From positions 1 through 64,000 of the forward strand of contig NZ_JASHHX010000008.1 of NCBI RefSeq assembly GCF_030056575.1: a stretch of 64,000 nt of DNA, in the 5' to 3' direction. This stretch comes from Rhodoblastus sp. 17X3 (GTDB lineage: Bacteria; Pseudomonadota; Alphaproteobacteria; Rhizobiales; Beijerinckiaceae). The notes under the pieces are model-generated. The model worked only from the letters and a program-made list of their open reading frames with translations. It made no database searches and was not told where the DNA came from. The position numbers and the translations under genes are program-made. This document shows positions 8,804-23,857 of the stretch, one piece after another; position 1 is the stretch's first letter, and each line of letters begins with the position of its first letter.

Positions 8804-9670
8804 TTAGCCCTGCAAGCGTTTGCATAACAAGTCCAATTGCTCCATCGATTTGTAATGAATGCGAACATCTCCCGCATCATTTTTATGCGAAATCTTGACC
8901 CCGAGCCCGAGCAAGTCGCCCAGCAACTTTTCCAGAGCCCGCGTGTCCGAATCCTGTTCAGCCCTCGCCCTCGGCTTTTTCGGCGCCTCTCCCGCGTCTT
9001 CCTGCGCAAGACGCTCGACGTCCCGAACGGTAAGCCCTTCCTCGACGATCCGGGCCGCGACTTTTTCGGGATGCGAAACGGACAACAAGGCGCGCGCATG
9101 GCCTGCTGAGATCTGCCCATTGACGAGATAACCCTGGGCCTCTTCCGGCAACTTGAGCAGTCGCAACGTATTCGCGACGTGGCTCCGGCTCTTGCCGATG
9201 ATCTTGGCCAGATCCTGTTGGCTATAGGAAAACTCCTCCGTCAACCGTTCATAACCCCGCGCTTCCTCCAAGGCGTTGAGATCGGCGCGCTGAACGTTCT
9301 CGACAATCGCGATTTCAAGCGATTGCTGGTCATCTGCCTCGATGATGACGATCGGAACTTCGTGCAACCCCGCCCGCTGCGCTGCACGCCACCGTCGTTC
9401 GCCGGCGATGATCTCGTACACGTTGATGAGGCCCCGGATCGTCCGCACAAGGATTGGCTGAACAATCCCGCGCTCGCGTATTGAATCCGCAAGTTCCTGG
9501 AGATCGCCCTCATTGAAACTCTGTCGAGGATTTCGCGGGTTCGGCCGCAAGAACTCAATCGGCGCCTTGGCCGGCTTCTGCTGCTCTGCGAACTCGGCGT
9601 CACTCACTCCGACATCGCCAATCAAGGCGGCCAAGCCACGGCCCAAACGCGATCTTGCTTCTTCAGCCAT
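8804..9670 (-). CDS. parB: Chromosome-partitioning protein ParB
   Basis: ParB is a CTP-dependent DNA clamp that loads at parS and interacts with the ParA ATPase to segregate origins. The 288-residue protein has the N-terminal SRLGRGLAALIGD ParA-interaction segment, the CTP-binding GERRWRAAQ motif (90-98), a helix-turn-helix around QQDLAKIIGKSRSHVANTL, and a C-terminal dimerisation segment ending in LDLLCKRLQG. The start at MAEEARSRLG is chosen over an ATG four codons upstream by family match. It lies 73 bp downstream of parA on the same strand. Three parS-like sites lie within about 8 kb. Confidence 0.96.
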   Translation of the reverse strand: MAEEARSRLGRGLAALIGDVGVSDAEFAEQQKPAKAPIEFLRPNPRNPRQSFNEGDLQELADSIRERGIVQPILVRTIRGLINVYEIIAGERRWRAAQRAGLHEVPIVIIEADDQQSLEIAIVENVQRADLNALEEARGYERLTEEFSYSQQDLAKIIGKSRSHVANTLRLLKLPEEAQGYLVNGQISAGHARALLSVSHPEKVAARIVEEGLTVRDVERLAQEDAGEAPKKPRARAEQDSDTRALEKLLGDLLGLGVKISHKNDAGDVRIHYKSMEQLDLLCKRLQG

Positions 9671-9743
9671 GAAAACCCCCATCTCGCGCGACGAAGGTTA
9701 AAAACACCTCGCCCGAGAATTCTGCACCCGATTACGAACGCCC

Positions 9744-10562
9744 TTACGCCGCCCGCAAATTCCGCTCGCGCTGAATAACCTCTGAAGCCAGCTTTAAATA
9801 GGCTTGCGACCCGCTGCACTTCAGATCGTAAAGCAACACAGGCTTGCCATGCGACGGCGCCTCGGAAACGCGGACGTTCCGCGGAATAACCGTCTCATAA
9901 ACCTTGTCGCCGAGAAAGGCTCGCACATCGGCCACGACCTGCGCCGCGAGGTTATTCCGGGAATCGAACATTGTCAGGACGATCCCATGAATGGACAATT
10001 GGGGGTTCAATCCCTTCTTGACCTGCTCGACAGTCGACAGGAGCTGCGACAAACCCTCGAGCGCGAAAAATTCACATTGCAATGGCACAAGAACGGCGTC
10101 GCTCGCCGCCAATGCATTGATGGTCAGCAAATTCAGCGACGGCGGACAGTCGACTAGGACATAGGTAATCCGATCGCCATTCGGCAATGCGCCCCTACCG
10201 GCCAAAGCCCGCAACGCGTTTCGTAGCCTGAAATTGCGCTCTTTTTGATCCGCAATTGCAAGTTCGACGCCCAAGAGGTCCAGAGTTGATGGAGCAACAT
10301 ATAGGCGGGGCACGGAAGTAGGCCGGATCGCGGCGTCCAGCGCGCGCTCCCCCATCATCACGTCAAAAGTCGAGATGGTCCGCTGCTTCCGATCAATGCC
10401 CAGGCCGGTCGACGCATTGCCTTGCGGGTCGAGATCTATGATCAGAACGGTTTCGCCGATGGCCGCCAAAGCCGTACCAAGATTGATGGCCGTCGTGGTC
10501 TTGCCGACCCCGCCTTTTTGATTGGCCAGTACAAGGACGCGCATCTGATCATCATTTTTCAT
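9744..10562 (-). CDS. parA: Chromosome-partitioning ATPase ParA (Soj)
   Basis: ParA is a Walker-type ATPase that binds the nucleoid in its ATP dimer form and pulls ParB-parS complexes apart. The 272-residue protein carries the deviant Walker A KGGVGKTT (16-23), the DLDPQGNASTGLG Walker A' region and a VLVDCPPSLNLLT Walker B region. The ATG at 10562 is preceded by an AAGGG ribosome site and gives a usual length. Upstream in-frame starts exist but would run into rsmG. The stop of rsmG is 10 bp upstream. Confidence 0.96.
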   Translation of the reverse strand: MKNDDQMRVLVLANQKGGVGKTTTAINLGTALAAIGETVLIIDLDPQGNASTGLGIDRKQRTISTFDVMMGERALDAAIRPTSVPRLYVAPSTLDLLGVELAIADQKERNFRLRNALRALAGRGALPNGDRITYVLVDCPPSLNLLTINALAASDAVLVPLQCEFFALEGLSQLLSTVEQVKKGLNPQLSIHGIVLTMFDSRNNLAAQVVADVRAFLGDKVYETVIPRNVRVSEAPSHGKPVLLYDLKCSGSQAYLKLASEVIQRERNLRAA

Positions 10563-10572
10563 AGCCACACCC

Positions 10573-11208
10573 TTAAACGCGATTCGTTCGAGAGTCATGC
10601 GCCCGAACAACAACAATACTACCACCTGGTTCAGTGCGGCTTGCGACAATCTGGATATCCAAACTATTATTCGGCGGTAAATCGGTCAATTCAGCCGACA
10701 GCCCTCTCCCCTTTAAAAACAGCCCTGTCGCGCCCTTAACCAGCGCCGGCCATGCATATTCCACAAGAAGGGGCAAAGGCGCCAAAGCCCGCGCGGAAAT
10801 GACGTCGAAATCGGTCTGTTCGCAAAGCTTTGGAAGGATGGATTCGATCCGCCCGACATGGATATCGACATCGATCCCTGTTTCACGTGAAACCTCACGC
10901 AAGAAAGCGACCTTTCGCTTATCCGATTCGATCAGATGAACCCGGCCCGCGCTCCCCTTCGTCATGGCGATCACGAGGCCCGGAAATCCGCCGCCGGACC
11001 CGAGATCAACCCATTCGGCCCATCCCCCCGCGAGTTCAGCCAGTTGATACGAATCCTCGAAATGACGCGTCCACAGGTCAGCCAATGTGGACGGACCGAT
11101 CAGATTGATCTTGGGCTGCCACTTGCCGATCAAGGAGGCGTAGATTTCAAGCTTGGATTTCATCTCCGGCGTGAGCAGAGCCAAACCGTTCGAGCGTGAA
11201 GCGGTCAT
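10573..11208 (-). CDS. rsmG: 16S rRNA (guanine-527-N7)-methyltransferase RsmG
   Basis: RsmG (GidB) methylates G527 of 16S rRNA using S-adenosylmethionine. The 211-residue protein shows the SAM-binding WVDLGSGGGFPGL motif, LIESDKRKVAFLREV and SARALAPLPLL, all family signatures. It sits 4 bp after mnmG and just before parA in the standard order. A parS-like site lies inside its coding sequence at 10879-10894, as can occur in parAB-linked clusters. Confidence 0.95.
   Translation of the reverse strand: MTASRSNGLALLTPEMKSKLEIYASLIGKWQPKINLIGPSTLADLWTRHFEDSYQLAELAGGWAEWVDLGSGGGFPGLVIAMTKGSAGRVHLIESDKRKVAFLREVSRETGIDVDIHVGRIESILPKLCEQTDFDVISARALAPLPLLVEYAWPALVKGATGLFLKGRGLSAELTDLPPNNSLDIQIVASRTEPGGSIVVVRAHDSRTNRV
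10879..10894. promoter_or_regulatory. parS-like centromere site 2 (15/16 match), inside rsmG
   Basis: TGTTTCACGTGAAACC differs from the parS consensus only at the last base and keeps a perfect 14-bp palindrome GTTTCACGTGAAAC. It lies within rsmG, about 300 bp from the parA start. Conservation of a parS core through coding sequence suggests selection for ParB binding. Confidence 0.82.
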
Positions 11209-11212
11209 GGCG

Positions 11213-13111
11213 TCAACCCGTAAGCACCGCCCCTGGCTGACCGCGCTTACGCTGCCACGCCAGGATCAAGGTTAGCGCCGCAGGAGTGATCCCCTCGATC
11301 CTGGCCGCATGACCAAGACTTTCGGGCATTCCCGCTTTCAGTTTTGCGCGCGCTTCGTTCGAAAGCCCAACGACCGAATCATAGTCGATATCTGGCCCGA
11401 GCCGCACGGCCTCATCGCGCTTAAGCGCGGTGACGGCAGATGACTGTCGGTCGAGATAGACCGCGTATTTTGCGTCGATCTCCACCTGCTCACGGACCTT
11501 CGGTCCATATTGGCTCAGCTCCGGCCAGACTCGAATGAGATGATCGAAGGTGACGTCCGGATAGGAAAGGATTGCGAAGGCCGCCCGGCGCACGCCGTCT
11601 CGATTCAGTTTCACGCCATATTTCGCGGCGTCCGATGGCGCCAGATCAAGCGACTGCAACCTGCCCGTCAGAGCCTCGAGTTCGCTCAGCCGTTCCCCAA
11701 AAAGCCTGCGCCGAGCCGACCCGACGCAGCCGATATCGTCGCCTTTCCTCGTCAGCCGCAAATCCGCGTTATCGCAGCGCAAGGACAGCCGGAATTCCGC
11801 GCGCGAGGTGAACATGCGGTAGGGCTCGGATACACCCTGCGTGACCAGATCATCGATCATCACGCCAAGATAAGCTTCGGTGCGATCAAATATGACTTCT
11901 CCGGATCCTCCAGCGAGGGCGGCCGCATTGAGTCCAGCGACCAATCCTTGCGCGGCTGCTTCTTCATATCCGGTGGTTCCGTTGATCTGGCCTGCCAGAA
12001 ACAGTCCCGGGAATTTCTTGACTTCGAGCGTCGATTTGAGTTCGCGCGGATCGACATAATCATATTCCACGGCGTAACCCGGCCGAATCACATCGACATT
12101 CTCAAGCCCCGGAATGGTCCGAAGAAACTCCTCCTGGACATCCGCCGGAAGAGAGGTCGAAATGCCATTCGGATAGATGGTGTCGTCGTCCAGGCCCTCG
12201 GGTTCGAGAAAAATCTGATGACTATCCCGTTCCCCAAATCGAACGATTTTATCCTCGATCGACGGGCAATAGCGCGGGCCACGACCCGAAATCTGTCCGG
12301 AATAAATCGGCGCCCGATCCAGATTGCGGCGGATCACGTCGTGGCTAGCCTGCGTCGTGTGGGTTATCGCGCAGGCGACCTGGCGATTCCTGCAAGACGT
12401 CGTGAAGGCTGAAAAGAATTCAGGATTGGCGTCGCCCTCCTGTTGCTCCAACTCGTTCCACCGAATCGAGCCGCGCCGCAACCGTGGCGGCGTACCGGTC
12501 TTCAAGCGCCCGAGACGAATGCCCCGTGCGGCAAGGCCGTCGCTCAGATGCAAAGCGGGAGCGTCCCCGATGCGACCTGCTGGCTTTGTCTCCGGTCCGA
12601 TATGAATGCATCCATTCAGGAAGGTTCCGCTCGCGATTACGAAGGCTTTTGCGGAAATTGTCTTCCCCTCTTCCAGATGCAATTTGATCCGTCCGGAGCC
12701 TACGATCTCCTCGATCCCGATCGCAGCGCCTTCGGCCAAATCGAGATTTTCGGTCGCCTTAAGCAGGTGGCCGACAGCGGCTTTATAAAGTTTCCGATCG
12801 GCCTGGGCGCGGGGCCCGCGAACTGCCGGACCCTTCGACCGGTTCAGCAGTCGGAACTGAATGCCCGCTTCATCCGCGGCGCGGCCCATGATTCCGTCCA
12901 GCGCGTCGACCTCGCGAACAAGGTGGCCTTTCCCCAGCCCCCCGATCGCCGGATTGCAGGACATTTCGCCAATGGTCGAAAATTTATGCGTCAACAGCAA
13001 GGTATGAGCGCCGCAACGCGCGGCAGCCGCCGCCGCTTCACACCCGGCGTGACCACCGCCGATGACGACGACATCATAATGCGAAGCATCGTGGATCATG
13101 ACCACACTCAT
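11213..13111 (-). CDS. mnmG: tRNA uridine-34 5-carboxymethylaminomethyl modification enzyme MnmG
   Basis: MnmG (GidA) is the FAD-binding partner of MnmE in modifying the wobble uridine of several tRNAs. The 632-residue protein has the dinucleotide-binding [14 protein letters not shown] near the N-terminus, then [30 protein letters not shown]-type segments. [13 protein letters not shown] and the [14 protein letters not shown] motif are further signatures. Its ATG immediately follows the mnmE stop, and a second ATG four codons on is also possible. It forms an operon with mnmE and rsmG. Confidence 0.96.
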
Positions 13112-14464
13112 TCATTTTCCGATACAAAAGCGGGCGAACAAGCTGTCCAGTATATCTTCGACACCGACCTTGCCGATCAGTTCCTCAAGCGCAAAACACG
13201 CGCGACGAAGATCTTCAGCAAGGATCTCCAAGGGTAAATTCATCCGCCCGGCATCGGCCAAGGCGTCCAGCGCGCGATCGATCGCGTTCCTCTGCCGTGC
13301 ATTCGCCACGACGAGGGAGCCGGCAACCGTCATATTTTCATTGGCGAAAACTTGCAAGCGATCCATCAGGAATCCAAGATTAAGGCCCGTCTTCACCGAA
13401 AGATCGAAAGACTTCTCGTCCCGCCCGCCCGGAAATTCGCAACTGACAAGTTCCGACGACAGATCGGCCTTGGTCGCAATGCGCCATAACGGACGCTGAA
13501 GCAACTCCGCGGGCGGCTCGATTTGATTCGCCCTCGGAGCCAGCCAAAGTACAAGATCCGCGCTTCGTGATTTTGTCAGCGCGCGGTGAATCCCTTCGCG
13601 TTCGATTGGGTCTTCGCTCTCACGAATGCCAGCAGTATCGATCACATTGACCGGAAAGCCGCCAAGATCGAGTTTGACTTCGATCAGGTCACGGGTCGTT
13701 CCCGCATATTCCGAGACAATGGCGGCTTCGCGTTTGGCTAGAGCATTGAGCAGACTTGATTTTCCCGCATTGGGAGGGCCCGCAATCAGCACCGAAAGCC
13801 CTTCCCTGATGAGTTCCGCGCGTTCGTGGGTGGACCTCAAAGATTGGAGCTGCTGTCGAACTTCAGGAATTCGCTCCTGAACCTGGTTCGTAACGTCGTG
13901 AGGGCGATCGCCTTCATCCGAGAAATCGAGTTCTGTTTCGACCAGAACCATGAGATCGAGCACCCGACCGCGCAACTGACCAATCGCCTCCTGCAAAACT
14001 CCGGAAGCAGCGATTGTCGCCAGACGGCGCTGCTGCTCCGTCTCGGCGTCGATCAAGTCAGCCAAGGCTTCCGCACCGACCAGATCCAGCTTGCCGTTGG
14101 CCAAGGCCCGGCGAGCAAATTCACCGGGCAGCGCCATCCTCGTTTCCCCGAATGTCGCCAAGACATCAAGCATCGCCCTAACGACGGCCCGGGAGCCGTG
14201 AATCTGCAATTCGACACAGTCTTCGCCGGTGAAACTGCGCGGCGCAGGAAACCACAGAACGACGGCCTTATCCAGGATCTCAGCGGTGTGCGGATTTCTG
14301 ATCGGACGCAAGGTCGCAACACGCGGCGAGGGCGCGGCTCCAGCGACGGAACCCAAGATTTCTAAAGCCTTGTGGCCCGAAATGCGAATGATGGCGACGG
14401 CCGATTTGCCTGCACCTGACGCCAGTGCGTAGATGGTCGCACTGTGTTCGCATCCGGGACTCAT
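13112..14464 (-). CDS. mnmE: tRNA modification GTPase MnmE
   Basis: MnmE (TrmE) is a dimeric GTPase that works with MnmG on tRNA wobble uridines. The 450-residue protein has the N-terminal tetrahydrofolate-binding domain (TIYALASGAGKSAVAIIRISG), the G1 motif GPPNAGKSSLLNAL, the YAGTTRD switch and DTAGIRE. It ends in the catalytic C-terminal FCIGK. The ATG at 14464 is chosen because GGAGG lies at 14471-14475 (minus strand), an almost ideal ribosome site; an ATG nine codons upstream lacks this. The parS palindrome sits about 19 bp upstream of the start. Confidence 0.96.
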   Translation of the reverse strand: MSPGCEHSATIYALASGAGKSAVAIIRISGHKALEILGSVAGAAPSPRVATLRPIRNPHTAEILDKAVVLWFPAPRSFTGEDCVELQIHGSRAVVRAMLDVLATFGETRMALPGEFARRALANGKLDLVGAEALADLIDAETEQQRRLATIAASGVLQEAIGQLRGRVLDLMVLVETELDFSDEGDRPHDVTNQVQERIPEVRQQLQSLRSTHERAELIREGLSVLIAGPPNAGKSSLLNALAKREAAIVSEYAGTTRDLIEVKLDLGGFPVNVIDTAGIRESEDPIEREGIHRALTKSRSADLVLWLAPRANQIEPPAELLQRPLWRIATKADLSSELVSCEFPGGRDEKSFDLSVKTGLNLGFLMDRLQVFANENMTVAGSLVVANARQRNAIDRALDALADAGRMNLPLEILAEDLRRACFALEELIGKVGVEDILDSLFARFCIGK

Positions 14465-14482
14465 AAGGAACCTCCAAATCAA

Positions 14483-14514
14483 ATCGACCATGTTTCACGT
14501 GAAACATGGTCGAT
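14483..14514. promoter_or_regulatory. parS site 3 (16/16 match) inside a 32-bp perfect palindrome
   Basis: TGTTTCACGTGAAACA at 14491-14506 is an exact parS. The symmetry extends without a mismatch eight bases further on each side, giving a perfect 32-bp palindrome centred between 14498 and 14499. It lies in the rho-mnmE intergenic space, just upstream of the mnmE ribosome site. As RNA it would form a long hairpin, so it might also affect readthrough from rho into mnmE. Confidence 0.92.
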
Positions 14515-14541
14515 CAAGTTCTCTAATAATGAATAGCTCGC

Positions 14542-15846
14542 TCAGGTGTTCATGGAGTCGAAAAACGTCGCATTGCCTTTCGGCGTTTCACGCAACTTCC
14601 CGAGCAGGAACTCAATAGCGTCCACAGTGCCCATCGGGTTCAGGATGCGGCGGAGAACATACATCTTCTTGAGAATGTCGGCCGGCACCAGGAGTTCTTC
14701 CTTACGCGTACCGGACCTGGTGATGTCGATCGCGGGAAAGACACGCTTGTCGGCGACCTTGCGGTCGAGAATAATCTCTGAATTGCCGGTGCCCTTGAAT
14801 TCCTCGAAAATAACTTCGTCCATGCGCGATCCGGTCTCAATGAGCGCGGTCGCGATGATCGTCAGCGATCCGCCCTCTTCGATGTTTCGGGCCGCACCAA
14901 AAAACCGTTTCGGCCTTTGCAGGGCGTTGGCGTCGACGCCGCCCGTCAGCACCTTGCCGGAAGATGGCACGACGGTGTTATAGGCGCGACCCAAACGCGT
15001 GATCGAATCCAGAAGGATGACGACGTCGCGACCATGCTCCACCAAGCGCTTCGCCTTTTCGATTACCATTTCCGCGACCTGGACGTGGCGAACCGCCGGC
15101 TCGTCGAAAGTGGATGACACGACCTCGCCCTTTACGGAGCGCTGCATGTCCGTGACTTCCTCCGGGCGCTCATCGATCAACAGGACGATAAGATAGCATT
15201 CCGGATGATTGGTCGTGATCGACTGCGCAATATTCTGCAGGATGACCGTCTTGCCGGTACGTGGCGGAGCAACGATGAGTGCGCGCTGGCCCTTTCCGAT
15301 AGGCGCGACAATATCAATGACCCGAGCGGAGAAATCCCTTTTCGTCGGATCCTCGATTTCAAGCTTCAAGCGCTGGTTCGGATAGAGCGGCGTCAGGTTG
15401 TCGAAATGAACCTTGTGGCGAACCTTCTCCGGATCTTCGAAATTAATCAAATTCACTTTGAGCAGAGCGAAATAGCGCTCGCCCTCCTTCGGACTCCGAA
15501 TGAGCCCTTCGACCGTATCGCCGGTGCGCAAACCAAACCTGCGGATTTGCGAAGGCGAGACATAAATATCGTCCGGCCCCGCAAGATAATTTGCATCGGG
15601 CGCGCGCAAGAAGCCAAAGCCATCCTGAAGCACTTCGACGACGCCCTCGCCGACGATCTCAATTTCCCGAGACGCCAGCTGCTTCAAAATCGCAAACATC
15701 AATTCCTGTTTGCGCATGATCGAAGCATTCTCGACCTCATGCTCTTCAGCAAAGGCGAGCAGATCCGTCGGGGATTTCGCCTTCAGATCCTGAAGCTTGA
15801 TTTCACGCTTCCGGCTTTCCGCGCCGGCTTTATCAATATCTGTCAT
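14542..15846 (-). CDS. rho: Transcription termination factor Rho
   Basis: Rho is the hexameric RNA helicase that ends transcription at C-rich unstructured RNA. The 434-residue protein has the N-terminal helical [18 protein letters not shown] region, the cold-shock RNA-binding domain ([27 protein letters not shown]), Walker [26 protein letters not shown] and the C-terminal MDAIEFLL-like segment. [10 protein letters not shown] is chosen as the start; an upstream in-frame ATG would add 13 residues unlike the family. Rho precedes mnmE in the order usual for Hyphomicrobiales, although hemE-hemJ, which often sit next to rho, are 6.5 kb away here. Confidence 0.96.
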
Positions 15847-16084
15847 GGCGCGATGCGCTCTTCTGATCGTGTTGGGAATATTCAATCATCGACGCGATCC
15901 GCGCCCCTTGTCATCGCGCCAATCGTGCGCTGCTGGACAAGTGATTGCTTTGAGGAGAGGAGGCAAGCCTATCCACTTTAGCCGTCCTCGTAAAGTCTAT
16001 CTTCGAGACAATCCGAAAATATCCCTCGGTTCCGTCGCTAGACCTTGGCCCCGGCCAGATACGTTCGGAGGCCCGAGAATAGGT

Positions 16085-16621
16085 TCAAGCTTTAGATTTC
16101 AGCACGAGGGGCAATCCCGCGGCGACGAAGGTGACCTGCTCGCAAGCAGCCGCTAGAGTTTGATTCATTCGCCCATGACTGTCCCGGAACGCGCGGCCGA
16201 GCGATGTCTCGGGAACGAGACCCATTCCCAGCTCATTCGAAACGAGGACCAGCGGCAACGGCTTCTCTTTGACCAAAGCGGCAAGTTTTGCCACTTCGCT
16301 CGCATGATCGATCTCTCTTAACAGCAAATTGGATAGCCAGATCGTCAGGCAATCGACGACGACGATGCGGTCGGGTCGGGAAATCTGGTCCAGGACTCCG
16401 GCAAGATCGATGGGCTCTTCCCAGACCTGCCAGGTTTCATCACGTTCAGCGCGATGCAGCGCGATCCGCTGTTCCATTTCCGGATCAAAGGCTTCCGCGG
16501 TGGCGACCATCCATTTTTCAAGTCGGGAATCGGTCGCCAGCTTCAATCCAAAGGCCGTTTTCCCGGATCTGGCGCCTCCGAGCACCAGATGCGTCCGCCA
16601 TTCCATGGTGGTCTCAGCCAT
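16085..16621 (-). CDS. cobU: Adenosylcobinamide kinase / adenosylcobinamide-phosphate guanylyltransferase
   Basis: This bifunctional enzyme (CobU, or CobP in aerobic organisms) phosphorylates adenosylcobinamide and attaches GMP during nucleotide-loop assembly of cobalamin. The 178-residue protein has the P-loop GGARSGKTAFGL, the VVDCLTIWLSNLL motif and VSNELGMGLVPE...GRAFRD, all diagnostic. It lies 28 bp downstream of dnaA on the same strand, an unusual partner, and may be read from the dnaA promoter. The start may be M1 or the ATG five codons later. Confidence 0.93.
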   Translation of the reverse strand: MAETTMEWRTHLVLGGARSGKTAFGLKLATDSRLEKWMVATAEAFDPEMEQRIALHRAERDETWQVWEEPIDLAGVLDQISRPDRIVVVDCLTIWLSNLLLREIDHASEVAKLAALVKEKPLPLVLVSNELGMGLVPETSLGRAFRDSHGRMNQTLAAACEQVTFVAAGLPLVLKSKA

Positions 16622-16649
16622 CTCAACGCAACTCTATGACTTGAACGTC

Positions 16650-18119
16650 TCAATCGCTCAACAGGCGCTTCAATAATTCCAGTTCCTGATTAAGTCCGGA
16701 ATCCTTTGAAACCAAATCCTCGATTTTGCGAACCGCATGCAAGACGGTCGTGTGATCCCGGCCGCCAAAACGCCGACCGATCTCCGGCAAGGATCGCAGA
16801 GTCATGGTCTTGGCCAGATACATCGCAATTTGTCGCGGGCGCACGACATTCGCCGTGCGTCGCGACGACAGGATATCCGCCCGGCTCACATTAAAATGCG
16901 TCGCCACGAGCTTCTGAATATCTTCGATCTTCACCCGCTTGGGTTCGCGGACCCGGATCAGGTCGCGGATCGCGGCTTCGGCGGCCTCGATGGTCAAGGA
17001 CGCGCCCGCAAGGATCGTATGAGCCAAGAGGCGATTGACCGCGCCATCCAGATCGCGACCATTGGTGTCGATGGAGCGGGCCACCATTGCTACGACCGCG
17101 TTTGTGACCTCAAATCCCGGCTGAGCGGTGCGCGCATTTTCGATCCGAGCTTCCAGAATACGCATGCGCAGGCCTTCGTCGAGCGGCTGCATTTCAACGC
17201 ATAGGCCACCCGAAAAGCGCGACCGCACGCGCTCGTCCAGATTCTCCAGCTCGTTCGGCGCACGATCGCCGGCGATGACGACCTGCTTGCCGGAATCGAT
17301 CAGCGCGTTCAGCGTATGGCAGAATTCATGCTGGATGGTCTTACCCTGCAGGAACTGGACATCGTCGATCACCAGCAGATCAATCGACCGCAATTTCTCC
17401 TTAAAGCCAATGGAGTTCTGGGACTTCAGCGCCGAAACGAAGCCATACATGAACTTCTCGGCCGTGAGGTAGATCACCCTGCGGCCCGCTTCCAGGCCGG
17501 CGTGTCCGATCGCCTGAATCAAATGGGTTTTTCCAAGTCCCACATTTGAAAAGATGTAGAGCGGGTTGAACATGGCGCCCACGCCGGGATTGATCGTCGC
17601 GACCTGTTGCGCCGCCGCATAGGCCAGCTGGTTCGAGGGACCCACCAGGAAATTTGCGAAGTTAAGCCGACGATCGAGACTGGAGCCTTCGATCCCCTCT
17701 ATGACCCTGCGAGCCGGAGTTGGTCCGTCCGACCGCACATCCTCGCTCGAATTTTCATGTCCCAAGCCGACGCGGGCGCCTTCAATCGCCTGACGCTCGC
17801 TTGCAGCACGGATGGCATTCCGCGCCGTCGCCCTCAAATTGAGCACGATATCACGGACTTCGGGAACTTCCTGAACCACGACAGCCCGCAATTTTTCAAG
17901 ATAATGGGCGTGAATCCAGCTCTTCAAGAATTTGGTCGGAACGGACAGATAGGCGACTTCGTTCACGACCTCGTCGAGCTCAAGACATTTGAACCAGGAG
18001 GAATAGACGGCGTCGCCGACCTCCGATTTGAAACGGGCGCAAAATCTGACCCAAATTTCCGAGGTCGGCTTTGCATTCCGCTCTTCGGGGATGTTCATCT
18101 GAATTTGGGCCTTCGACAT
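16650..18119 (-). CDS. dnaA: Chromosomal replication initiator protein DnaA
   Basis: DnaA binds 9-mer boxes at the origin and, in its ATP form, melts the unwinding element. The 489-residue protein has domain I (SEIWVRFCARFKSEVGDAVYSSWF), a linker with low-complexity sequence, the AAA+ domain with GLGKTHLIQAIGH and VIDDVQFLQGK, and the C-terminal DNA-binding signature GGRDHTTVLHAVRKIE. Upstream is a 788-bp non-coding stretch with a very AT-rich core. Downstream is cobU, 28 bp away. dnaA is about 4 kb from the hemE-linked origin candidate. Confidence 0.97.
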   Translation of the reverse strand: MSKAQIQMNIPEERNAKPTSEIWVRFCARFKSEVGDAVYSSWFKCLELDEVVNEVAYLSVPTKFLKSWIHAHYLEKLRAVVVQEVPEVRDIVLNLRATARNAIRAASERQAIEGARVGLGHENSSEDVRSDGPTPARRVIEGIEGSSLDRRLNFANFLVGPSNQLAYAAAQQVATINPGVGAMFNPLYIFSNVGLGKTHLIQAIGHAGLEAGRRVIYLTAEKFMYGFVSALKSQNSIGFKEKLRSIDLLVIDDVQFLQGKTIQHEFCHTLNALIDSGKQVVIAGDRAPNELENLDERVRSRFSGGLCVEMQPLDEGLRMRILEARIENARTAQPGFEVTNAVVAMVARSIDTNGRDLDGAVNRLLAHTILAGASLTIEAAEAAIRDLIRVREPKRVKIEDIQKLVATHFNVSRADILSSRRTANVVRPRQIAMYLAKTMTLRSLPEIGRRFGGRDHTTVLHAVRKIEDLVSKDSGLNQELELLKRLLSD

Positions 18120-18907
18120 TTTTTCTCTTCTTCAGGCAATGGTTCGCCCTTTCGCGCCGGAGCGAAAGACGCGACGTCCGATATGGCTGGATGTATTGAA
18201 CGAGTGTTGGGATGTCTAATCCAACCGAGCCTCAAGCACCCGGAGGATACCAGGCTTCTCGATCAGGAATAAAAGACATCATGCTCTGACCCGCCGAACT
18301 GCAGTTAAGACGCGCTCGAAGGAGTCGCACTGATAAAAAGCTGAATCTGCAATATCATCATGCCCCCCTTGCGCCTAAATCCCGCTTCGGTCTGTTTCTC
18401 TCGTATCACGTAATAAGAACACATAATACCTATATTCTCATCCGAATATAAGTTATGTTATTACTTAATACAAATCAGATATAGTTCGTTATTTGCTATC
18501 TCTGGTCCCGTTATATTTTATGCTTGGTCATTTATGAAGCTTTCGACATCGGGCTTTCCGTGACAGCCAAGAAACCATACACAGGGCGTCCGAGCTAGGC
18601 AATGCCTCCAGAGCCAGATTCACGAATCCAAATGGACCTCTCAGCGAGCCGGCAGACACCGAAAATGCATTTCGCTTGAGAACAAGGCGAGTCCGAGCAA
18701 AGCTGTTCATGCATCGCAAAATCCACCCGAAAAAAACCATTATCAAATTTGCGATTCGGACCAAACGCTCCAGCTTGTCAAGATCACGCCGCAGCGGCGT
18801 GGCGACGGCTTTATAAATAAGCTTTTGTTTTTATGTGAGCTTCTCTGACCGGCCTTGAACCTGTCATAAATTTTTATCGTTCGGTTTCCTGGAACCCCAA
18901 AGCTGCG
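18120..18907. other. 788-bp non-coding gap upstream of dnaA with AT-rich core
   Basis: No convincing gene lies here. The stretch at about 18400-18535 is markedly AT-rich against the surrounding high-GC DNA. Six GANTC motifs (starts 18322, 18343, 18617, 18624, 18689, 18753) are present, about twice the chance expectation; CcrM methylates GANTC in this class. On the minus strand a TTGTAT / TTATAT pair spaced about 16 bp near 18440-18475 could be a promoter for dnaA with a long leader, at low confidence. No perfect DnaA box was found. The region could be the dnaA control region, a DNA-unwinding element, or both. Confidence 0.6.
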
Positions 18908-21121: not shown

Positions 21122-21955
21122 TCAAGAGCTAGCTATGAATTTCATTGAATGAACGCGGTAAAGATCCATGATCGCCGCCGCTGTCTCCTCGATCGAGCGC
21201 CGGGATACGTCGATTGTAGGCCAACCGCGTTCTGAAAAAAGTCTCCGCGATCGACTGATTTCGTCGGCGACCGAAGTCCTGTCGACATAAGAGGAGTCCT
21301 GGGTCGCATTGAGCGCCAGCAACCTGTTCTGCCGAATTTGCACAATCCGCTCCGGCGAGGCGAAAAGTCCAATGACCAATGGTTTTCGCACGTTTTCCAT
21401 CACGGATGGAAGCGGCACGCCGGGAACGAGCGGAATATTCGCGGTCTTGACGCCACGATTGGCCAGATAAATGCTCGTCGGGGTCTTTGAAGTCCGGCTG
21501 ACGCCAAGAAGAACGACGTCGGCGCTCTCCAGGTCTTCGGCCATCTGCCCATCGTCATGCATCATGGTGTAATTCAAAGCTTCGATACGCTTGAAATATT
21601 CGGAGTTCAAAACATGCTGGGCGCCCGGTCGCGGGGCCGAGGCAGGACCGAGATAGGACTGAAAAAGCCCCAATATTGGAGCAAGGACGGAAAGCGCCGG
21701 CGAACCGGCGTCCGCACAGGCTTTCTCGAGCCTTTCAGCAAGTTCTGAATCCACCAAAGTGAAGAGCACGATCCCGGGCGAGGACTGGATTCCGGCGATG
21801 ACTCGCTCCAGTTGCTCGTGATTGCGGATCAAAGGGTAGATATGTTCGATCGACGCGATGCCCTGATATTGCGCGGCGGCGGCCCGACTCACGGCGATAA
21901 GGGTCTCTCCCGTCGAGTCAGACACCAGATGAAGGTGAAAATAGTTTCTGGTCAC
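21122..21955 (-). CDS. ppsR: Pyruvate, phosphate dikinase / PEP synthase regulatory protein (DUF299)
   Basis: This family has kinase and phosphorylase activities that switch PPDK or PEP synthase off and on. The 277-residue protein has the N-terminal [12 protein letters not shown] motif and the P-loop-like [11 protein letters not shown], both diagnostic. It is the homologue of the gene called RP001, which with hemE flanks the origin in Caulobacter and Rickettsia. It is divergent from hemE across a 416-bp non-coding region that is the best origin candidate. Whether PPDK or PEP synthase is the local partner cannot be seen in this window. Confidence 0.92.
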
Positions 21956-22091
21956 AGCGCGCCTGGTTCGTTGTCAACGAGACACAATCCGTAATCCGAC
22001 CCCACGCGACAGGCAAGGCTTGTTGAAGCCTGTGAATATCCGTTCAAATGCGACCAAAATATCGCACCTCGCATTCCGGCGACGCCATTCC

Positions 22092-22106
22092 TTTAGAATT
22101 TATTAA
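22092..22106. promoter_or_regulatory. Near-match CtrA binding site (7/8)
   Basis: TTTA-GAATTTA-TTAA matches the CtrA consensus TTAA-N7-TTAA at seven of eight fixed bases with exact 7-bp spacing. It lies 115 bp from the perfect CtrA box in the same region. Confidence 0.45.
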
Positions 22107-22220
22107 CCGGCGTCAATCTGTCATCAAAAATCCTCACCCCTGTCCAAAATAATGGGAATTACGGGTATAATTCCGGCGGAACGCCTCTGCGGCCGGCTCG
22201 GGGAAGCAGAGAAATTATCG

Positions 22221-22235
22221 TTAAAAAAGGTTTAA
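22221..22235. promoter_or_regulatory. Perfect CtrA binding site TTAA-N7-TTAA
   Basis: TTAA-AAAAGGT-TTAA matches the CtrA consensus exactly in half-sites and spacing. CtrA is the alphaproteobacterial cell-cycle regulator that represses initiation at the Caulobacter origin and also controls the overlapping hemE promoter. The site lies 137 bp upstream of the hemE start. Confidence 0.7.
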
Positions 22236-22371
22236 CGTCAAAGCGCGTCGAACCTGAATTCCATCTCAAAAATTCCGGTCTGTTGGGGATCCATTGTGTG
22301 TGGCCGTGAATAAGGCTATTCCCTCGGCTAATAACAGAAAAAGAGATTCTAGAAAGATATAGGATTATTCC

Positions 22372-23436
22372 GTGACCGCGCCGGCGACCAGTGGCCTCTC
22401 AAGCAAGACCAACAAGGCCTTTTTGTCCGTTCTTGATGGACAGCAGCTCAAGACTCCGCCGATCTGGCTGATGCGCCAGGCCGGGCGATACTTGCCGGAA
22501 TATCGCGAACTGCGCGCGACCGCGAAAAACTTTCTCGATTTCTGCTATTCTCCCGCTCTTGCCGCGGAAGCGACACTTCAGCCAATCCGGCGCTTTGGTT
22601 TCGACGCCGCCATTCTTTTCAGCGATATCCTCGTCATCCCCGACGCGTTGGGCCAGACGGTGACGTTCGAAGCTGGCGAAGGTCCTCGTCTCAATCCTTT
22701 GACGTCCGTCGAAGACATCGAACGGCTTCCCGAATTATCGCTGGGCCGGCTCTCCGCCGTTTTCGAGACGATCGACCGGGTCAAGCCCCGGCTTGCTCCG
22801 CAAACGGCCTTCATCGGTTTCTGTGGCGCTCCCTGGACCGTCGCAAGCTATATGATCGCCGGACGCGGCACCCCGGACCAGGCGCCCGCCCGACTCTTCG
22901 CCTATCGAAATCCCGCCGCGTTTCAATTGCTCATCGATAAATTGGTCGACGCCTCGATCGCCTATCTGAGCGAACAGATCCGCACAGGCGTCGAAGCGGT
23001 CCAGATTTTCGATTCCTGGGCCGGAATTTTGCCGCCATCCGAATTTCAGCGTTGGAGCCTCGCGCCGATCGCCCGCATCATTTCCGGCGTCCGCACCAGC
23101 CATCCTGCGGCGCGCATCATCGCCTTTCCGCGCGGCGCCACGACCCATCTTCCGAACTTCATTCGTCAGACCGGCGCGCAAGCCATTGGCCTCGACACAG
23201 CTGTCGATCCGAACTGGGCCGTGAACGCCATTCCGGAACAGGTGGTGGTGCAGGGCCATCTCGACCCGCTCGCGCTGCTGGCGGGCGGAAGAGCGCAGAC
23301 CGAGGCTGTCGACGCCCTTCTCACGGCCTACCGGGGCCGTCGCCACATCTTCAATCTCGGCCACGGAATTTTGCCTGAGACTCCGATCGATCATGTGGCG
23401 GCGCTGGTCGATCAGGTTCGCTCATTCGAGGGCTGA
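22372..23436 (+). CDS. hemE: Uroporphyrinogen decarboxylase
   Basis: HemE removes four carboxyl groups from uroporphyrinogen III to give coproporphyrinogen III in haem and chlorophyll synthesis. The 354-residue protein has the signature [17 protein letters not shown] near the N-terminus and [13 protein letters not shown] in the middle. Further on come a QIFDSWAG segment and the C-terminal [12 protein letters not shown]. It starts with GTG, preceded by an AGGA ribosome site. The stop and the hemJ start are one base apart, so the two haem genes form a pair. Its upstream region is the origin candidate. Confidence 0.96.
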
Positions 23437-23437
23437 A

Positions 23438-23857
23438 ATGTATCTTTGGATCAAAGCGCTGCATGTCGTCTCGATCATCTCGTGGATGGCCGGGTTGCTC
23501 TATCTTCCCAGGCTTTTTGTCTATCACTCCGACGCCGAATTGAAATCGATCCAGTCCGAAACATTCAAAGTGATGGAAAAAAGATTAGCCCATGCAATCA
23601 TGACGCCAGCGATGGTCATGAGCTGGATTTCTGGTTTGTTTATCGCGATTCATTCTGGATTTTATTCAGAAAATTGGTTCAAGATAAAATTCATATTGGC
23701 TATATTCATGACGGTATTTCATTTTTATCTATTGAATTTACAAACGAAATTCAATTTCGACAATAATCGCCACTCCAATCGATTTTACCGTCTCATCAAT
23801 GAGATTCCGACCGTGCTCATGTTGCTGATCGTCGGTCTTGTCATCCTGAAGCCGTGA
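23438..23857 (+). CDS. hemJ: Protoporphyrinogen IX oxidase HemJ
   Basis: HemJ is the membrane-embedded protoporphyrinogen oxidase of most alphaproteobacteria and cyanobacteria lacking HemG or HemY. The 139-residue protein has about four membrane segments and the N-terminal ALHVVSIISWMAGLLYLPRLFVYH motif with conserved histidines. It follows hemE by one base. Base composition is visibly more AT-rich than its neighbours (roughly 23580-23800), which may reflect the hydrophobic coding or a separate history. It ends one base from the convergent regA stop. Confidence 0.9.
   Translation: MYLWIKALHVVSIISWMAGLLYLPRLFVYHSDAELKSIQSETFKVMEKRLAHAIMTPAMVMSWISGLFIAIHSGFYSENWFKIKFILAIFMTVFHFYLLNLQTKFNFDNNRHSNRFYRLINEIPTVLMLLIVGLVILKP

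Follow-up and report, generated by a model that had tools for sequence, protein, structure and literature searches.

Gene content and organisation of the locus

The window, that is the whole 64-kb stretch of DNA that was analysed, contains an intergenic region between the divergent genes ppsR and hemE, and the coordinates and flanking genes proposed for this 416-bp gap in an earlier note on the same DNA are correct (Table 1). To the left of the gap the minus strand carries, in order, parB-parA-rsmG-mnmG-mnmE-rho-cobP-dnaA-dnaQ-coaE-aroE-ppsR, and to the right hemE and hemJ on the plus strand are followed by actR-actS-typA on the minus strand (parA, parB, rsmG, mnmG, mnmE, rho and typA were named by reading their translations by eye). 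In most relatives, matches to hemE begin at residue 7 or later. The gap has two traits of alphaproteobacterial origins of the hemE type: its flanks are a divergent ppsR (COG1806) and hemE, and it is longer than 300 bp and richer in AT than its surroundings (47% GC versus 52-66% across the 2-kb bins of the window).

Table 1. Coordinates of the genes and motifs considered here (positions in the window).
Feature	Position	Strand	Remarks
Candidate chromosomal origin (oriC), ppsR-hemE gap	21956-22371	.	416 bp, 47% GC
ppsR	21122-21955	-	DUF299/COG1806 type regulator; left flank of the gap
hemE	22372-23436	+	GTG start; right flank of the gap
hemJ	23393-23857	+	next conserved gene after hemE
dnaA	16650-18119	-	
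parB and parA	8804-10649	-	named by eye from translation and from place beside mnmG-rsmG
Perfect CtrA box (TTAA-N7-TTAA), TTAAAAAAGGTTTAA	22221-22235	.	151 bp before the hemE start adopted here
7/8 CtrA-like site, TTTAGAATTTATTAA	22092-22106	.	shared with the near-identical congener G003
DnaA-box-like site, TTGTCAACG	21971-21979	+	8.1 bits; absent from the earlier note
DnaA-box-like site, ATATTCACA	22031-22039	-	7.1 bits; TGTGAATATC kept in G003, G002 and G007
DnaA-box-like site, TTATTCACG	22305-22313	-	7.5 bits
GANTC	22345-22349	.	AGATTC common to all five aligned gaps
Perfect parS-like palindrome	14491-14506	+	7.7 kb from the gap

CtrA and DnaA motifs in the gap

The perfect TTAA-N7-TTAA motif described in the gap proved to be the single one in the whole 64 kb, and the accompanying 7/8 site is likewise present. 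Dinucleotide shuffles give an expectation of 0.01 perfect boxes for the gap and of 0.26 CtrA-like sites with at most one mismatch. Across the genome (4.18 Mb), 25 perfect boxes were counted versus 48 occurrences of a reversed-pattern control and, the reversed pattern being the commoner, there is no genome-wide enrichment of the perfect box. CtrA itself is encoded (423 bits on the CtrA family model for a cut-off of 350, the next best match reaching 180.5), and is nearly identical in its receiver domain to a CtrA of known structure (chain 4qpj). For the IHF site WATCAN5WTR, the gap contains no exact match and one match with a single mismatch.

The two DnaA-box-like 9-mers announced as 8/9 matches (22031 and 22305) are found with the loose pattern TTWTNCACA only, which matches the gap three times (mean 0.68, P = 0.038); no site in the gap matches TTATCCACA or TGATCCACA with fewer than two mismatches. 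When a DnaA matrix trained on gaps of other genera, outside the clade of the window, was applied, three matches of at least 7 bits were obtained in the gap against 0.36 expected from the window density (Markov P = 0.041), and the gap was the densest, or co-densest, 400 bp of the 64 kb. The canonical TTATCCACA at up to two mismatches has two matches in the gap (0.46 expected) and is exceeded by a cluster of five sites with two mismatches within 400 bp in and beside rsmG (window 10476-10950), which is probably due to chance in coding DNA. With two canonical matches in the gap versus five at rsmG, the DnaA boxes of the window taken by themselves prove little. The GANTC of the gap was correctly placed and is unremarkable, as 452 such motifs occur in the window counting both strands. 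Judged on these sequence statistics, the predicted CtrA box of the gap is clearly above chance and the DnaA boxes alone are marginally so.

Conservation of the gap and of the CtrA box

We searched 32 regions from relatives, nine of which were chosen for a split ppsR/hemE pair. Of the 23 regions with ppsR beside hemE, 20 show the entire arrangement dnaQ-coaE-aroE-ppsR|hemE-hemJ. Perfect CtrA boxes are present in 13 of 23 gaps, window included, against 0.115 expected from shuffles, and in 15 of 27 after the addition of four gaps. An unbiased search for enriched words over 25 gaps recovered both TCCACA, the DnaA-box core (22 gaps, 4.4 expected), and GTTAAC, a CtrA half-site (10 gaps, 1.35 expected). 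Over 24 loci, the hemE-side gap is the densest or co-densest stretch for TTATCCACA-like sites (at most two mismatches) in 20, the window being among the four misses; counts are low in one region (L106) because it contains 3971 N.

The conservation is specific to the spacing of the two half-sites. Among the matches listed, TTAA-Nk-TTAA occurs with k = 7 in 22 of 104 gaps, a proportion that is not a class-wide frequency since 27 of these gaps were chosen as relatives and the others are mostly best hemE matches; the other spacings (k from 0 to 15) are found in at most four gaps each, and in 16 in all over 15 spacings, among the same matches. Besides the 27 gaps from chosen relatives, the set includes 77 loci with the divergent pair within 2.5 kb, drawn from 109 loci made up of the best 80 of a hemE survey and of 29 from the matches listed in a second survey (160 of 231 genomes matched, 30 loci including the window). 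The remaining 32 were dropped, some of them at contig ends; L263, which comes from the same genome as L010, and the near-duplicates L002/L003 and L004/L006 were retained.

In the family of the window, which we take to be the Beijerinckiaceae, a perfect box is present in 11 of 18 gaps, the seven gaps without one including those of congeners G002, G006 and G007. An alignment of five gaps places the CtrA box within one or two columns of the same position in all of them, perfect in the window, G003 and G019 and at 7/8 in G002 and G007. Among the matches listed, both of the named Methylobacterium records have the box, and the family member G018 groups with Methylobacterium (tree support 100/100). 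No box was found in the 11 listed matches named Rhizobium, Mesorhizobium, Ochrobactrum, Shinella, Aminobacter, Aquamicrobium or uncultured Rhizobiaceae, nor in the 10 labelled Sphingomonas, Novosphingobium, Erythrobacter, Sphingomonadaceae or Sphingomonadales.

A P of about 0.04 for the DnaA boxes of the window alone would be compatible with motifs that arose by chance in an AT-rich promoter gap and have no special function; this reading is strongly disfavoured, given the spacing-specific conservation of the box, the enrichment of the DnaA word over 25 gaps and the synteny.

parS-like sites, GC skew and position of the probable origin

In addition to the perfect parS-like palindrome, weaker copies lie at 10879 (one mismatch) and 888 (two mismatches), which makes three sites within 22 kb, all called with what we take to be the parS consensus. 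A switch in the GC skew of the window was placed at 23812 (likelihood range 23.1-24.2 kb, gain 46.9), which is 1.4 kb beyond the hemE start and within about 2 kb of the gap; points inside the gap are 6.3-7.5 log units worse than the best point.

Skew over longer distances was sampled on contig C67 (161 kb), the genome of the window being assembled in 68 contigs; beyond the window it is positive in four of five stretches and -0.0035 in the remaining one. For congener G006, 20 stretches of a 4.13-Mb contig were sampled; the cumulative skew reaches its lowest, flat section at 0.2-0.64 Mb, hemE occupies 424089-425108 and a local minimum is found at 421788. In G019 (single contig, 20 stretches) the sampled skew is lowest after the 0.63-Mb stretch, the local minimum being at 706595 and hemE at 703818-704831. 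The sampled skew thus turns in the hemE part of both chromosomes, and the minima of the window, G006 and G019 are all displaced to the side of hemE, by 1.4-3.4 kb from its start.

When the minimum within 9 kb was determined in 24 regions, it ranged from -8994 to +3526 relative to the hemE start (median +863), seven of these minima being beyond -8 kb, close to where the stretch ends; with such kilobase-scale scatter, many single regions do not locate the origin. Moreover, fourfold-site skew tracks codon bias, rho, typA and argG of the window being C-rich on the coding strand, and around hemE, hemJ and rho the fourfold-site and averaged skews show a bias that depends on the gene. The hemE-side offset may be due to gene composition. 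Because of this bias skew is good to a few kb at best, and we rejected it as a fine locator on account of its dependence on codon bias and of the spread of per-region minima over kilobases.

The skew minimum at 23812 and the recurrence of the offset in G006 and G019 would fit a true origin lying nearby at hemJ/actR, around 23.8 kb, where however hemJ and actR are one base apart. Another candidate is the dnaA-dnaQ gap (18.1-18.9 kb), which includes the alternative of about 18.4 kb raised in the earlier note and, at 18444, the 40 bp with the highest AT content in the window. It was rejected, as it is 13.7-16.5 log units worse in skew and holds neither a DnaA-matrix match (1.27 expected) nor a CtrA box; in addition, only two of the 23 regions from relatives have dnaA next to dnaQ. 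Altogether, an origin at either of these nearby places appears very unlikely. Synteny, motif conservation, parS and parAB, together with a skew switch no more than about 2 kb away, rather indicate that the ppsR-hemE gap is very probably the chromosomal replication origin.

Congeners in which hemE and ppsR are apart

In four congeners (G001, G004, G005 and G008) hemE and ppsR are on different contigs, and neither was traced near the other. Protein trees group the hemE (81/88, moderate) and the ppsR (98/97) of all four with the genus, so that these genes have most likely moved rather than been replaced. In the stretches examined, no perfect CtrA box was found upstream of hemE or upstream of ppsR in any of the four. 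Upstream of rho in G008, at a distance of 0.4-0.7 kb, a region adjoining tRNA-Ala(GGC) contains two perfect CtrA boxes, together with two DnaA boxes having at most one mismatch, one of them identical to TTATCCACA, at a density no higher than elsewhere on the contig. G005 and G004 possess a comparable region beside tRNA-Ala (located in G004 by sequence match), each with a single perfect box; four and five DnaA-like sites, respectively, lie within 450 bp and form the densest cluster of the stretch read. We infer that these tRNA-Ala-linked regions are origins; the skew change of G008, at 71070, is 0.5 kb from the region and weak (gain 3.2), and that of G005, at 91068, is 22 kb away. No origin-like region was found in G001, where the search returned tRNA-Ala copies and a 41-bp match only. 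G010, in which hemE and ppsR were both looked for without success, yielded tRNA-Ala and a single match of 37 bp, and the 15 kb read contain no DnaA-like site or perfect box.

These congeners bear on the reason for which the box is kept. The gap could be oriC and its CtrA box nevertheless serve the transcription of hemE or ppsR, without replication control, as might be suggested by the position of the box 127-228 bp upstream of hemE in 16 of the 22 boxed gaps among the matches listed. Moreover, in the extracts consulted, the Sinorhizobium meliloti origin has no CtrA motif and no CtrA binding (PMC4433202), and CtrA of Brucella abortus does not bind its own origin (PMC2877005), with which the absence of boxes in Rhizobium-, Mesorhizobium- and Ochrobactrum-type records agrees. 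However, in G008, G005 and G004 the perfect boxes stay with origin-like DNA and none lies upstream of the displaced genes, which argues that the box is tied to the origin-like DNA rather than to hemE. The split-pair congeners thus lower the hemE promoter as the reason for the box, and a purely transcriptional role seems rather unlikely. Nor do they support the coupling of replication to hemE transcription, proposed in the earlier note, as the reason why the box is kept.

Comparison with known origins and proposed control

Considering all these elements, it is likely that the ppsR-hemE gap is an oriC equivalent in position to the hemE-COG1806 origin of Caulobacter and Rickettsia, opened by DnaA and hindered by CtrA~P. 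As regards the CtrA-controlled origin proposed initially, the origin part is supported by synteny, motifs, parS/parAB and skew, and control through the predicted CtrA binding is plausible, because CtrA is encoded and the box recurs at the exact 7-bp spacing in the gaps of relatives. By analogy with Cori, several weak boxes would serve for the assembly of DnaA and the AT-rich DNA would melt; phosphorylated CtrA, bound to the perfect box at 22221, would hinder DnaA, and replication would fire only while CtrA is inactive. The single strong CtrA box may then represent a reduced version of Cori control, and the simplest reading would be that DnaA drives opening, with CtrA~P acting as a brake at a single site.

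As a hemE-side oriC, the gap would belong to a kind of origin already known in Alphaproteobacteria. Like Cori of Caulobacter crescentus, it holds at least one CtrA box (the perfect one), but it differs from Cori by its number of CtrA sites (five across the origin there, one perfect and one 7/8 here), by the lack of an exact IHF match and by the lack of any site within one mismatch of TGATCCACA, which we take to be the G-box sequence. Since neither several CtrA sites spanning the origin nor an exact IHF site were found, the gap was not classified as a Cori-type five-site CtrA origin. The features common to both are the hemE and COG1806/DUF299 flanks, TTAA-N7-TTAA, DnaA-like sites and an AT-rich gap, as far as Cori is described in extracts of PMC1914354 and PMC4468827, and in the latter CtrA is thought to exclude DnaA at Cori. 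The Rickettsia prowazekii origin similarly combines hemE-COG1806 flanks with CtrA motifs but is about 82% AT, with usually four to seven CtrA sites in insect-associated Rickettsia (extracts of PMC1914354).

Among the matches listed, named Rhizobium, Mesorhizobium and Ochrobactrum records resemble the window in having DnaA boxes in a ppsR-hemE gap. The organism of the window, whose family has CtrA boxes, is of the same order as Sinorhizobium meliloti and Brucella abortus. Hyphomonas neptunium belongs to a different order. There, ChIP-seq shows CtrA bound at a site adjacent to the origin (PMC7200025, in extract), a binding that was measured in that species and is predicted in the window.

We lean slightly towards a broader reading in which one family (including Methylobacterium) has direct CtrA control of oriC, absent in Sinorhizobium and Brucella, in which the element would be selected for origin control itself, and in which the origin of a subclade would have lost hemE and ppsR yet kept perfect boxes beside tRNA-Ala(GGC). 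Changed origin neighbours are known in Wolbachia and relatives (PMC1914354, in extract), and our literature search, conducted partly by title and with most subscription journals outside its scope, found no report of CtrA boxes at Beijerinckiaceae origins. A family with frequent, spacing-exact origin boxes beside box-less families makes the gain or loss of CtrA origin control testable, and lineages in which hemE has another location make it possible to tell origin control apart from hemE regulation. Annotators should also be warned that, in the group of the window, oriC is not safely located from hemE.

Additional observations

The rho-mnmE-mnmG-rsmG-parA-parB block (window 8804-18119) lies beside dnaA, on the other side of the candidate origin compared with relatives such as G019, and has retained what is presumed to be the leading strand despite this change of side. 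The actR-actS-typA genes are on the dnaQ side in G002 and G006, and actR was seen there in G007. In G001, G004, G005 and G008 (L122-L129, L154-L169), the matches to ppsR, hemE, dnaQ, a hemJ-like gene, dnaA and parB are each on a separate contig, while parAB-rsmG-mnmG-mnmE has remained a block, which in three of the four includes rho; with an identity of only 31%, the hemJ match may represent a different member of that family. Perfect TTAA-N7-TTAA motifs also occur 3-5 kb downstream of hemE in these four congeners and were left out of the box counts, as they look unrelated to the origin. In G005 and G001 they are spaced by 111 bp or a multiple of it (L124:7188-7646, L126:8243-8590) and probably form a tandem repeat, which is a warning for motif counting. 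In G005, IS66-like ORFs (identified by eye; L158:17197-18962) lie between rho and the origin-like region, beside an apparent inversion relative to G008.

The family member G017 has kept a hemJ-ppsR gap with DnaA-like sites, without a perfect box or hemE. Its hemE, found elsewhere, groups with Bradyrhizobium (L170:9160-10003; L131:9407-10447), an apparent xenologous replacement beside the origin. Finally, a block GGGGATCCATTGTG...GAATAAGGCTATTCC with the inverted repeat GAATA-AGGC-TATTC lies 5' of hemE (window 22286-22322); its partial conservation reaches even G019, and it is perhaps a hemE promoter or an origin element.
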